Source: Bacillota bacterium (GTDB taxonomy: Bacteria > Bacillota > Bacilli > Bacillales > Cytobacillaceae). From it: a stretch of DNA of 7,015 nucleotides. The position numbers and the translations under genes are program-made. The stretch covers positions 1 to 7,015 of the forward strand of contig JAUZPT010000154.1 in assembly GCA_030705745.1 (NCBI GenBank). Reading direction: 5' to 3'. Shown one piece after another: positions 1-3,085 of this stretch (position 1 is the first letter of the stretch; each line of letters opens with the position of its first letter). A model generated the notes under the pieces. That model saw nothing but the letters and a program-made list of their open reading frames with translations. It did not search any database and was not told the origin of the DNA.

Positions 1-53
1 AGATCCTCACGAAAGAAGGATTGGGACATCATCTTTGGGGCAATAGTAAATAA
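1..53 (+). CDS. C-terminal end of a YneQ-like hypothetical protein (partial)
   Basis: Only the last 16 codons are in the window, read from position 3 to the TAA at 51-53 (ending ILTKEGLGHHLWGNSK). From memory, the small YneQ family of bacilli ends in a similar way (an ILxxEGLxxH pattern), and yneQ lies just before yneR, pointing toward it, in Bacillus subtilis. The stop falls inside the stem of the terminator at 48-88, as expected for a gene end. The function of YneQ is unknown. Another + frame also stops nearby (TAG at 44-46), so the frame choice rests on the remembered tail pattern and on gene order; confidence is moderate at best. Confidence 0.45.
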   Translation, partial: ILTKEGLGHHLWGNSK

Positions 54-88
54 AAAGAAAAGCGGTAAAACCGCTTTTCTTTTTATTT
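48..88. terminator. Bidirectional intrinsic terminator between the yneQ-like gene and yneR
   Basis: A perfect inverted repeat pairs 48-66 with 70-88 around an AAA loop. The GC core is AGCGGT/ACCGCT and the outer stem is A/T-rich, so each strand ends in a T-rich tract. It overlaps the stop codons of both converging genes and can therefore end transcription from both sides. Confidence 0.85.
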
Positions 89-373
89 TTTATAATCAAA
101 AACTGGCTCACTGTGCTTTTTATTGAAATCGACGCTCAGGTCGTGTTGATCAAAATACCATAAATCTTTTTCTTCAATATAAAAGGTAATACCATTTTTC
201 TCTGTACCTACGCCGAGATCAACCGGCTCCTCATTTGAAACGCCTAAAGAAAATCCGCTCTGGACCGTGCTGCAGCCACCATAACGAACAAAAAAGCGCA
301 CATAATTCCCGCTAGCTAAATTCATTTCTGTTTGATACCAGTTTGCTGCTTCTTCACTAATTGTAATTTTCAT
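83..373 (-). CDS. yneR: HesB/YneR family protein (Fe-S biogenesis-type fold, single Cys)
   Basis: The product has 96 residues, matching the roughly 95-residue YneR branch of the HesB/IscA-like family. The family fold is that of A-type iron-sulfur carrier proteins, but YneR itself has no firmly known role, and cluster binding is not shown by the sequence. Visible features are the N-terminal MKITISEEAANWY segment, the RFFVRYGGCSTVQSGF core with the only cysteine at residue 34, and a C-terminal part rich in aromatic and acidic residues. The C-terminal Cys-Gly-Cys of true IscA is absent. Two adjacent ATG codons are possible starts; the inner one (371-373) is chosen because it lies 6 bases after the AAAGGAG site, while the outer one (374-376) would lie only 3 bases after it. 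It converges on the yneQ-like gene and probably has its own promoter. Confidence 0.85.
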   Translation of the reverse strand: MKITISEEAANWYQTEMNLASGNYVRFFVRYGGCSTVQSGFSLGVSNEEPVDLGVGTEKNGITFYIEEKDLWYFDQHDLSVDFNKKHSEPVFDYKK

Positions 374-445
374 CATGTGCTCCTTTCAAAACCTAGATGC
401 ATACACCTTAAAATAATAACAAGGTATTTTTTAAATTCCCATCTT

Positions 446-451
446 ATTATA
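446..451 (-). promoter_or_regulatory. Candidate -10 element for yneR
   Basis: The minus strand reads a perfect TATAAT here, about 73 bases before the yneR start. The best -35 at 17-base spacing is TCGATT (3 of 6 positions), so this is a weak candidate. The rest of 374-570 holds no gene that I can support; it is AT-rich and lies between the end of the CapA-family gene and yneR. Confidence 0.35.
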
Positions 452-570
452 AAAGAAATGCTTAAATAAATCGAGAAATGCTACCTACCAACACTCCTTC
501 AATCTATAAAAAGTGAAATTAATGGCGTACAAGTTAATTTTATACGTACCATTTGCGTTGTTAAAATCAA

Positions 571-1719
571 TCAATGAATCCATTGCTTCATAAAAGCTTG
601 TATTTCTCTATATTTCACATCAGCATGAGAAAGCCCATAAGATGCTGCTTTTTCAAGAGGAACTACTTTATAAAGTTTAAAATGCTTTTGTGTAACATAA
701 GTAGGATAAAATAAAGGGTTGGACAGCTGAATTTTATTCCCGTTTTTAGTTGTAGATTTCGTGATGTCAACAGTAGCCAAACCTCCTATATCTTTGTAAT
801 CCCTAACCTGACCGGAAAGGAAGTTGCCTAAAGAATAGACGGCCAATACCTTTCTCCCATCACGTGCGGTTATCCACTCCATGGGCTGCAAAACGTGTGG
901 ATGTGAACCAAAGATGATATCCACGCCTTCGTTTGCTAAAAAATGTGCCAATTCCTTTTGGGCTGCCGAAGGATACCGTTCGTATTCCTTACCCCAGTGG
1001 ATACTCATAATAACGACATCAGCATCAAGTCTTGCTCTACTAATCTCTTTTTTCATCAAATCTTTATTGATTATATTGACCAGGTAGCTTTTATTTGCAG
1101 GTATCCGGATGCCATTCGTTCCAAATGTATAAGCTAAAAATGCAACTTTAATGCCGTGGCTTTCAATCACTCTTAATGTGTTTCGATCTTTTTCACTCGT
1201 AAAACTTCCCACATGCTTTAAGCCGATTTTGTCTAAATAGTTGGATTGCGACTGAATTCCGCGTTCTCCTTTATCATAGGAGTGATTATTTGCGGTCGAC
1301 ACGATATCGACTCCAGAATCCATGACCGCATCAGCAACTTCCTGCGGGCTATTGAATTCCGGGTATCCTGAAATGCCCAATGCTTTTCCACCCAGTATAC
1401 TTTCTTGATTTGCAGTTACAAGTGCGGGTTTTTGAAGCATCCCCTTTACATTTTGGAAAATAGGGTGAAAATCGTAGCTGTTGCCTCGTTTTGCATCATT
1501 GTATATCCAGTCATGAATAAGCACATCCCCGATCGCACCAACAGTAATTTTTTCTGTTATTTCTTTCCCTGGCAACTTAATAGAACTAGTAGGGAGGTTG
1601 GTTGAAGCATATACTTTTGAATTTTCAAATGCACTTTGGTATTGTTGTATAATCAGCAGTACAGTAATAATTAAACAAGAACCTACAAACAGTGAGAAAT
1701 AAAAGGGTTTATTTTTCAT
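571..1719 (-). CDS. CapA-family (PgsA/YwtB-like) membrane-anchored metallophosphatase-fold protein
   Basis: The product has 382 residues, the usual size for Bacillus CapA/PgsA-type proteins, which take part in capsule or poly-gamma-glutamate export or synthesis. Residues 6-25 form one hydrophobic segment after a KNK start, so the protein is probably anchored with the catalytic domain outside. Family motifs run in order: GDVLIHD (64-70), ANQES (103-107, NxE-type), ANNHSYDKG (143-151), HWGKEY (241-246), GSHPH (271-275) and SLGNF (296-300). These His/Asp/Asn residues are the likely metal site of the calcineurin-like fold. The ATG at 1717-1719 is chosen because AGGAG lies 6 bases before it; an in-frame TTG at 1723-1725 directly abuts AGGAG and is unlikely. 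No capB/capC partners are present, so a poly-glutamate role cannot be assumed; a stand-alone enzyme acting on a cell-surface polymer is equally possible. Confidence 0.9.
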   Translation of the reverse strand: MKNKPFYFSLFVGSCLIITVLLIIQQYQSAFENSKVYASTNLPTSSIKLPGKEITEKITVGAIGDVLIHDWIYNDAKRGNSYDFHPIFQNVKGMLQKPALVTANQESILGGKALGISGYPEFNSPQEVADAVMDSGVDIVSTANNHSYDKGERGIQSQSNYLDKIGLKHVGSFTSEKDRNTLRVIESHGIKVAFLAYTFGTNGIRIPANKSYLVNIINKDLMKKEISRARLDADVVIMSIHWGKEYERYPSAAQKELAHFLANEGVDIIFGSHPHVLQPMEWITARDGRKVLAVYSLGNFLSGQVRDYKDIGGLATVDITKSTTKNGNKIQLSNPLFYPTYVTQKHFKLYKVVPLEKAASYGLSHADVKYREIQAFMKQWIH

Positions 1720-1794: not shown

Positions 1795-1825
1795 GAGAAA
1801 AATGTTTATAAGGAGAGTGATGCAT

Positions 1826-2116
1826 ATGTTTAAATTGACTGAGAGTGCATTCAATAAGTTACATGTGGCCTTGGAAAAGGAGAAAAAAGATCCAAATGAA
1901 GTATTATTCATTCGATTGACGATGGGTATTGGCTGAGGGGGACCAAAGTTAAATCTGTCTCTGGAAGAGCAGATACTGCAAGAAGATCAGCTTTATGAGT
2001 TCGAGGATTTAAAAATTCTTATTCATAAGCATGACAATGTTTATTTTGACCATACGAAGCTTGATTTTGTTTACGATGTATTCGGAAAAGGCAAATTTCA
2101 AGTATTAAAAATGTGA
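1826..2116 (+). CDS. HesB/IscA-like selenoprotein, Sec encoded by in-frame TGA at 1934-1936
   Basis: Read with TGA as selenocysteine, the product has 96 residues with Sec at position 37, in the sequence LTMGIG-U-GGPKLNLSLEE. The family has a conserved Cys in GxGCGGxxL at this place, so the TGA stands exactly on the key ligand residue. Downstream codons stay open for 59 residues and keep family character (an acidic stretch, ILIH near 64-67, LDFVYD near 79-84, a hydrophobic end) up to a TGA stop at 2114-2116. A SECIS-type hairpin follows the Sec codon. A-type HesB/IscA proteins carry iron or Fe-S clusters; HesB-like members are among known prokaryotic selenoproteins, but their function is unsettled. 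The C-terminal Cys pair of IscA is missing (GKGKF), and the protein has no other Cys, leaving Sec37 as the only such residue. ATG 1826 is 10 bases after AAGGAG; ATG 1820 (4 bases) would add two residues. A standard annotation would stop at residue 36. The alternative is a nonsense-mutated pseudogene. Confidence 0.85.
1953..1974 (+). promoter_or_regulatory. Bacterial SECIS element (selenocysteine insertion hairpin)
   Basis: The RNA folds as AUCUG paired with CAGAU (1953-1957 with 1970-1974), a single bulged U at 1958, then CUCU paired with AGAG (1959-1962 with 1966-1969), closed by a GGA loop (1963-1965). It lies inside the coding frame, with 26 bases between the Sec TGA and the loop. Known bacterial SECIS elements, such as that of E. 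coli fdhF, have a bulged U in the 5' side of the upper stem and a G at the start of a small loop, recognised by SelB about this far from the UGA. All of these features are seen here. Confidence 0.82.
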
Positions 2117-2156
2117 AAGCGGTCTATCCTATCGGGATGACCGCTTCCTTATTTAT
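2117..2156. terminator. Bidirectional terminator between the HesB-like selenoprotein gene and the 61-residue orphan
   Basis: AAGCGGTC (2117-2124) pairs with GACCGCTT (2139-2146), and the stem continues with ATCC/GGAT after one unpaired T, closing on a TATCG loop. A T-rich tail follows on the + strand. On the minus strand the stem is also followed by T-rich sequence, so it can serve both converging genes. Its start directly at the TGA stop of the selenoprotein frame supports 2116 as the true end of that gene. Confidence 0.8.
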
Positions 2157-2161
2157 TTCAC

Positions 2162-2347
2162 CTATTCAGTATCTGGTATTTGCTCAATGAAAAGTATCAA
2201 ATCCTCAAAATTGTTAATCACACGGATTGGCTCACCTATGCAGCTCAATCCATGTGAATATGGGTAAATTTCGATATTTAGTTCATTACCTGACTGTACT
2301 TCTGCAGTGGAAGCTGAGTAAACGAATGCGTAATCTTCATGTTTCAT
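2162..2347 (-). CDS. Hypothetical 61-residue protein, family not recognised
   Basis: The product is a small acidic protein of 61 residues with a single cysteine at position 36 in SHGLSCIGEP and a hydrophobic-acidic C-terminal segment (FEDLILFIEQIP). There is no signal peptide and no membrane segment. The start at 2345-2347 is well supported: AAAGGAG lies 8 bases before it. A TTG six codons upstream is in frame but overlaps the ribosome site. Good translation signals, a terminator just past the stop and an intact frame argue that it is a real gene. It converges on the HesB-like selenoprotein gene, which gives a location but no proof of a shared role. I can offer no function. Confidence 0.65.
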   Translation of the reverse strand: MKHEDYAFVYSASTAEVQSGNELNIEIYPYSHGLSCIGEPIRVINNFEDLILFIEQIPDTE

Positions 2348-2462
2348 AACTGATGCTCCTTTCAACTAAACATCTTTACAATAATTTTACAAAATAGAAT
2401 AGATAAATGGTGTTGTAATATATGAAGGTTTAGTGAAAGGAACCATTTTTTTACTTTGGAGA

Positions 2463-2504
2463 AAATAAAAAAAGCTAAAAGGAATTGGAGAATCCCTTTA
2501 TAGC
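2463..2504 (-). terminator. Intrinsic terminator of plsY
   Basis: On the minus strand GCTA, one bulged T, then AAAGGGATT pairs with AATTCCTTT followed by TAGC, around a CTCC loop. A run of seven T and then ATTTT follows. The stem begins inside the last codons of plsY and covers its stop. It separates plsY from the 61-residue gene further along the same strand. Between this site and the small gene (2348-2462) I see no gene and no clear promoter. Confidence 0.85.
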
Positions 2505-3085
2505 CATTTAATTTTAGGTTCTGTTTTATTTATTATCCGTTTAATATTTGCACGGTGCCTATATATGACGAAAAAAGTCATAAGCGAAACTACGATGATA
2601 AGCGGAAGGTCTTTATTGATGAAGACTGCGAAAATAATAGCAGATATACCCGCAAGCATCGAAGAAAGTGAAACATACTTTGTTATGTATAAGCAGAGGA
2701 AAAAAATAATAAGCATGGTTATAAACAAATACGGTGCGCAAAAAAGTAAAACACCGCCTGATGTTGCCACAGCCTTGCCGCCTCTGAAACCAGCAAAGAG
2801 AGGATACATATGGCCGACGACCGCAAAAACCCCCGCAATCAGTGGATTGATATTCGAATGAAACAACACAGGTAGTGATGCGGCAAGCGTTCCTTTTAGT
2901 ATATCTGCAATCGAAACAGCTAATCCAGCTTTTACTCCGAGTGTCCTGAACGTATTCGTTCCTCCAAGATTGCCGCTTCCATGCTCTCGAATATCGGTTT
3001 TATAAAACGTCTTTCCGATAATAAGTCCTGATGGAATCGAACCAAGCAAATAAGCAAGGACGAAGATGATAATTATTGTTGCCAT
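2498..3085 (-). CDS. plsY: Glycerol-3-phosphate acyltransferase PlsY
   Basis: PlsY moves an acyl group from acyl-phosphate to the 1-position of glycerol-3-phosphate, giving lysophosphatidic acid, the first membrane step of phospholipid synthesis in most bacteria; it works with PlsX and PlsC. The 195-residue length matches the family (193 in B. subtilis, as I recall). It is a multi-pass membrane protein. The three conserved cytoplasmic motifs are present: GSIPSG (15-20) leading into [16 protein letters not shown] (35-50), the ADILKG segment (60-65), and [13 protein letters not shown] (99-111). The ATG lies 8 bases after AAAGGAG. It is divergent from the ChrA gene and ends in its own terminator, so it is probably transcribed alone. 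In B. subtilis the same gene (yneS) sits on this strand between yneR and yneT. Confidence 0.96.

Follow-up and report, generated by a model that had tools for sequence, protein, structure and literature searches.

Is the TGA that interrupts an otherwise open 96-codon frame in this stretch of DNA the mark of a broken gene, or is it a codon for selenocysteine (Sec)? The stretch (here the window, meaning the whole 7,015 nucleotides analyzed; G000:C62:1-7015) belongs to a 3.33-Mb draft genome (566 contigs, completeness 85.68%, contamination 4.9%), and the gene in question, here called Sec-HesB, would encode a small HesB-like protein. The original prediction had described a frame interrupted only by the TGA at 1934-1936, with residues LTMGIG before it and GGPKLNL after it, and a stop that directly abuts a terminator. 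Both the frame, from the ATG at 1826 to the stop at 2114-2116, and the flanking residues were confirmed. A strong hairpin does adjoin the stop, but it is only a likely terminator because its T-run is poor and a mechanical scan (loops of 3-8 only) listed no terminator. The features of the gene are as follows:

1826..2116, forward strand: Sec-HesB gene, 96 codons plus stop (ATG 1826, stop TGA 2114-2116), with a PF01521 domain, a predicted IscA fold and 58 homologous loci
1934..1936, forward strand: predicted Sec codon, the in-frame TGA at codon 37, present in the window, in 58 of 58 loci and in 55 of 55 matches from the order
1810..1815, forward strand: AAGGAG, a ribosome-binding-like site read straight from the sequence
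2117..2146, forward strand: hairpin adjoining the stop, likely a terminator (-18.2 kcal/mol for 41 nt, z -4.64)

The answer we favor, and hold to be very probable as a whole, is that this is a selenoprotein gene whose TGA is decoded by SelB at a hairpin, and whose cysteine-free product of the IscA fold likely handles sulfane sulfur. The part of it that concerns decoding is firmer still: in living relatives, the TGA is almost certainly read as Sec. The read-through product matches PF01521 (Fe-S_biosyn) over residues 2-85 (31.8 bits against a cut-off of 26.3), an IscA fold is predicted for it with high model confidence, and its residues 37-40, UGGP, fit the UxGP motif of HesB-like selenoproteins. 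There is no cysteine in the window's protein, nor in 52 of its 58 relatives; the remaining six have one cysteine each, at no conserved place.

Relatives were found with an alignment of the product and six database proteins, all of which come from short contigs and carry tryptophan at residue 37. One search of genome records fetched 58 loci of the subfamily (group 1), with titles mostly of Neobacillus, Bacillus sp., Cytobacillus, Mesobacillus, Robertmurraya and Peribacillus, and one of Pseudomonas sp. ISL-84; every one has TGA at the codon. Matches at E<=1e-20 occurred in 147 of 193 genomes of the family (group 1 and a sister group, group 2, taken together), and the best match in each of the 147 again has TGA there, with a TAA in addition in the copy of G044. 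Across the order, 49 of 397 genomes matched at E<=1e-15, and all 55 matches hold one TGA and no other stop. No subfamily member with a sense codon at this position was seen among the 58 loci or the family and order matches. The nearest cysteine-bearing relatives are distant cousins (L138-L142, 32-43 bits) with the motif RKSC. As a separate observation, the Cys-type cousins L138-L142, L225 and L230 have no stop and are located at another locus, where L138 and L139 adjoin a frame that we take to be SelO/YdiU-like.

Purifying selection is equal on the two sides of the TGA. In 46 gapless sequences (13 of the 58 loci were left out), with only unsaturated pairs of the 1,035 used, median dN/dS was 0.295 for codons 2-36 (48 pairs) and 0.292 for codons 38-96 (141 pairs). 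Judged by these sequence comparisons, the in-frame TGA is more than chance, since the codon is shared and both halves are equally constrained. Beyond the codon lies a further element, which the original prediction had not seen:

1954..1973, forward strand: predicted bacterial selenocysteine insertion sequence (SECIS) hairpin, with a 4-bp lower stem, a bulged U (1958), a 4-bp upper stem and the loop GGA (1963-1965)

This hairpin is positioned 18-37 bases past the TGA. With the T of TGA counted as +1, the codons from +25 to +39 are frozen, whereas synonymous positions outside them differ greatly (median pS 0.78 and 0.68). Ser is TCT, Leu is CTG and Glu is GAG in 59 of 59 sequences (against backgrounds of 0.10, 0.14 and 0.29), and Arg is CGG in 30 of 30 (0.18); the exception is Glu at +31, with GAA in 51 and GAG in 8. 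The GGA loop and a stem with one bulged U are found in all 59, as are the pairs +22/39, +23/38, +24/37, +26/36, +27/35, +28/34 and +29/33, while +21/40 forms in 57 and +20/41 in only 1. Over 21 distinct rows and eight pairs, 98.8% of cells are paired and three pairs have changed on both sides; the covariation score was reached by none of 500 shuffles, and sliding the partners lowered it from 0.286 to at most 0.115. In each of the 59 sequences the hairpin is stabler than synonymous redraws (p<0.05 each; median z -4.17), compared with z from -0.14 to +0.46 in seven control stretches. In loop size, stem, position of the G, spacing (26 nt) and folding energy (24 nt, -8.5 kcal/mol), it agrees with the bacterial SECIS model (PMC13188914, Fig. 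2 legend), and a bacterial SECIS after the UGA is thereby predicted. Group-2 genes have the hairpin at the same place, with each of the eight pairs in 15 or 16 of 16 sequences. Five of the 58 loci (L041, L044, L047, L049, L069) and most duplicates among the others were left out of one row set; the tree was built from 60 rows.

The window's genome encodes SelB (359 bits against a cut-off of 242), and further genes for Sec synthesis and use lie together on another contig:

L196 (G000:C17), about 3-980, reverse strand: selD, with TGA in frame within the motif KAG-TGA-GCKIG
L196, 1112-1351, forward strand: SelW/Rdx-like gene with CxxU via TGA (TIGR02174, 68.3 bits, cut-off 34.2; PF10262), between selD and selA
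L196, about 1480-2892: selA (560.8 bits), with an in-frame TAG near 1864

SelD of this genome is likely a selenoprotein too. Twelve other genomes of 18 searched have selA above the cut-off without a stop, and tRNA-Sec, selB and selA are all present in three congeners, with the tRNA-Sec of G162 and G164 confirmed by both ARAGORN and Rfam. In G164 (L272, 5985-7350), an integrase-like frame, recognized by eye, follows tRNA-Sec, as if the tRNA gene were an integration site. Family-wide, tRNA-Sec was found in 172 and selB in 170 of the 193 genomes. The TGA gene (groups 1 and 2) co-occurs with selB: it is found in 142 of 170 selB-positive against 5 of 23 selB-negative genomes of the family, and in 46 of 179 against 3 of 218 in the order.

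What the product might do is suggested by the company kept by its sisters. Group 2 (about 77-93 bits) was surveyed for sulfur clusters, called when the stretch held at least three of the following genes: CstR-like, DsrE, rhodanese, TusA, glutaredoxin, MBL and TauE. Such clusters surround 10 of 17 group-2 loci of the family (among them three copies of a single transferred segment) and, in other families, 3 of 10, compared with 0 of 58 group-1 loci and 0 of 32 control loci, 30 of which span only about 4.9 kb. The family count covers 17 of 18 regions, without L253 (a group-1 type gene beside plsY), and the plasmid loci L254 and L255 are in neither count. The count for other families covers 10 of 15 regions, without L261, L269 and L270 (beside plsY), L258 (no gene picked up by the pattern) and L259 (in G389, a group-2-like gene near yneR and CapA-like genes); with L259 included, the count would be 3 of 11. 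On plasmid pBO1 (NZ_CP015507.1), the order runs from a metal-sensitive-type regulator through DsrE, two rhodaneses, TusA, glutaredoxin, DsrE and MBL, and onward through TusA, TauE/SafE, DsrE, an annotated peroxiredoxin (DrsE_2 by Pfam), the stretch of the Sec gene and a rhodanese. The Sec gene is located where no gene is listed, and CcdA lies one gene beyond the rhodanese that follows it; none of four plasmid-table records, in a table known to be incomplete, has an annotated feature at the group-2 gene. In gene types, the pBO1-type cluster resembles the cluster of B. licheniformis from yrkD to ydfQ, with sqr and pdo, described in the source as sensing and removing sulfane sulfur (PMC9918477). 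The sulfur cluster with the TGA gene (L236-L238, L254, L257) has apparently been transferred from one genome to another, some of the hosts having no selB match. A third TGA subfamily, group 3 (L226, L232-L235, L273-L276), is nearer to TIGR01911, with 46-64 bits for the rows seen, and adjoins a sulfur cluster in three of nine loci checked (L232, L234 and L235, all of one genus); none adjoins L226, L233 or L273-L276, where the stretches are short. Translated group-3 proteins end in C or CC, and the frame of L233 ends in TGC TGA TAA, in which a second Sec is indistinguishable from a stop.

We propose the following course of events. Ribosomes would arrive at the UGA at 1934, where SelB with Sec-tRNA-Sec at the downstream hairpin would insert Sec. 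A small IscA-like fold is predicted for the product, with the selenol at a turn, and this selenol could attack sulfane sulfur and hand it on or reduce it, as the persulfide-enzyme neighbors of the sister genes suggest. That a selenol at the tip of a β-hairpin reacts with persulfide or polysulfide, then transfers the sulfur or reduces it, is possible rather than probable; a sulfur role is put forward because the closest Sec sister group often sits in persulfide-detoxification-type clusters. The window's own copy has plsY for a neighbor and is in no such cluster; its substrate is guessed from its kin. More tentatively still, we speculate that a branch of the IscA fold lost all its cysteines, kept a single Sec that was never exchanged for cysteine again and became an obligately selenium-dependent persulfide handler of Bacillaceae, with Sec sister subfamilies, and that it may be a main reason for keeping the Sec machinery there. 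Annotation would have missed such a branch for want of a near cysteine homologue by which to find it.

Several observations weigh against the favored reading. The selA of the window's draft is interrupted by its TAG, and no tRNA-Sec above the cut-off was found in this incomplete, fragmented assembly; six hits below the threshold are Ser, Leu, Gly and Phe tRNAs. For these two reasons, Sec decoding may be lacking in the window's own strain, or the assembly may be at fault. The selB-negative genomes counted above, five in the family and three in the order, hold a TGA copy, and a strong match is missing from 28 of the 170 selB-positive genomes of the family. Four of the selB-negative exceptions (G006, G079, G146, G389) are fragmented drafts, and G006 and G146 have tRNA-Sec. 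The remaining genomes, G171, G175, G452 and G523, are nearly complete and carry group-2 copies amid sulfur genes, which we interpret as transferred into hosts that do not decode Sec. This interpretation draws on three of them: G171 and G175 have identical DNA across 901 aligned bases, and G523 matches a plasmid copy (G048:C2) at 93% identity over 9.5 kb. As to the hairpin, two of five shuffle measures are weaker (pairs changed on both sides, 8 of 500; further pair types, 84 of 500), and the 51-nt stretch is barely more stable than its shuffles (z -0.89). Sulfur clusters are missing from 7 of the 17 group-2 loci of the family, from 7 of the 10 of other families, from all 58 group-1 loci and from 6 of the 9 group-3 loci, the group-3 and most control stretches being short.

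Could the TGA be a real stop in a decayed gene, or a sequencing error? The missing tRNA-Sec, the TAG in selA and the sister-group copies of the four near-complete selB-negative genomes would fit such an account, which nevertheless strikes us as very improbable: decay or error would not be expected to leave one shared codon in 147 genomes, in all 58 loci and in all 55 order matches, with equal purifying selection on either side and a hairpin under constraint. The original prediction had asked whether TGA recurs at residue 37 in other genomes, as it does, and had named close relatives with TGC or TGT, this strain alone having TGA and other decay, as a sign of a pseudogene or an error. No cysteine version of the subfamily was seen; the cysteine homologues that it had also asked about at residue 37 exist as the RKSC cousins and as ordinary IscA/SufA-like proteins, but were not seen within the subfamily. 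It had likewise taken a missing selB or tRNA-Sec as a sign of a pseudogene or an error and had asked for a full set of Sec genes: selB, selA and selD are present, the selA with its TAG, whereas tRNA-Sec was not found in the draft, though it is in all three congeners. Taken with selB and the conserved, covarying hairpin, these results support its call of a selenoprotein. A reading of TGA as tryptophan or another residue, through a changed code or suppression, seems even less credible. All six database proteins have W at residue 37, but their contigs are 513-1116 bases long, and the two that were compared (P0003, P0007) share 97% and 93% identity with TGA genes in named records (L018, L042), so that the W is likely a TGA translated by another code. 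Suppression, moreover, gives no reason for a constrained SECIS-type hairpin or for the link to selB.

If the TGA encodes Sec, two other functions compete with sulfane sulfur handling. The protein could be an IscA/SufA-type carrier of Fe-S clusters or iron, with the selenol replacing one cluster ligand, as its PF01521 domain and predicted IscA fold would allow. A-type carriers need several cysteines, however, and here the window's protein and 52 of 58 relatives have none, the other six holding a single unconserved one; NCBIfam scores also fall far short of the carrier cut-offs (IscA 26.7 of 150.6, SufA 25.5 of 136.2, ErpA 27.2 of 117), and we regard this function as improbable. Slightly better placed, though still unlikely, is a regulatory role in which the protein blocks a partner enzyme, much as its paralogue YneR/PdhI plugs the active site of pyruvate dehydrogenase E1. 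Among the rivals it has the most appeal: PdhI is described as inserting Tyr31 into the entrance of E1 (PMC10090944), and by eye the Tyr31 loop corresponds to the Sec-bearing loop here. The Sec loop has no tyrosine, and the sister group is often found amid sulfur genes, both of which argue against a plug.

Around the Sec-HesB gene, the window holds these features:

2498..3085, reverse strand: plsY, the usual group-1 neighbor (TIGR00023, 218 bits, cut-off 137.2), in 56 of 58 fetched stretches
83..376, reverse strand: YneR/PdhI-like paralogue with a Cys in an RYGGC loop (PF01521, 40.1 bits), with a relative in 36 of 58 fetched stretches
2162-2365, reverse strand: small convergent frame with no Pfam, NCBIfam or PHROGs match

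The Sec-HesB gene sits between a PGA_cap/CapA-like gene (PF09587), which is within the fetched stretch at 42 of the 58 group-1 loci, and the small convergent frame; two clusters of small frames, alike by eye, occupy the position of the latter in 18 and 6 of the 58 loci. Farther on are plsY and genes that we take to resemble chrA, yneT and parE. plsY also adjoins three loci of other families (L261, L269, L270), although in L269 the gene was not picked out by the pattern. The fixed place of group 1 beside plsY suggests that the gene was inherited vertically, and it says little about what the protein does.

Genes of this kind would be truncated at the TGA by ordinary gene finding. The well-conserved branch and its sister group together are found in 147 of the 193 genomes of one family. 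As part of group 2 lies inside persulfide-type clusters, the function is testable in laboratory Bacilli; Bacillus methanolicus PB1 (L034) is one laboratory relative that carries the gene. HesB-like selenoproteins are in themselves a listed family (TIGR01911, motif UxGP), given for Methanococcus, Desulfovibrio and others in Table 1 of PMC13188914 and already listed in 2005 and 2006. A survey of 2016 reported 86 organisms with them (PMC5029168), and one was reported by 75Se labeling in M. maripaludis, its function being called unclear in that 2024 account (PMC11097638). The window's protein shares with them the PF01521 domain, Sec at the family's cysteine position and UGGP within UxGP; unlike them, it has no cysteine elsewhere, and no Cys-for-Sec version was seen. 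It scores 23.6 bits against the TIGR01911 HesB_rel_seleno cut-off of 66.35, which none of the 193 family genomes passes, and matches NF038090 IscA_HesB_Se weakly over residues 1-83 (36.6 bits, cut-off 85), where a group-2 protein scores 38.1 and two group-3 proteins 46.7 and 47.1. Since the UxGP motif fits while both cut-offs are missed, we place these genes in a separate branch, and what is new here is this predicted Sec-only, cysteine-free branch of the known HesB-like selenoproteins. The A-type carriers IscA, SufA and ErpA are alike in predicted fold and differ in their Cys ligands, and the window's protein falls below every equivalog cut-off listed for them. DsrR of Allochromatium vinosum is likened by fold only, and the source passage on DsrR makes no mention of Sec. 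The likeness to YneR/PdhI of Bacillus subtilis, a pyruvate dehydrogenase inhibitor in the account of PMC10090944, is likewise one of predicted fold only: where the window's YneR-like paralogue has RYGGC, the Sec gene, aligned by eye, has GIGUGGP.
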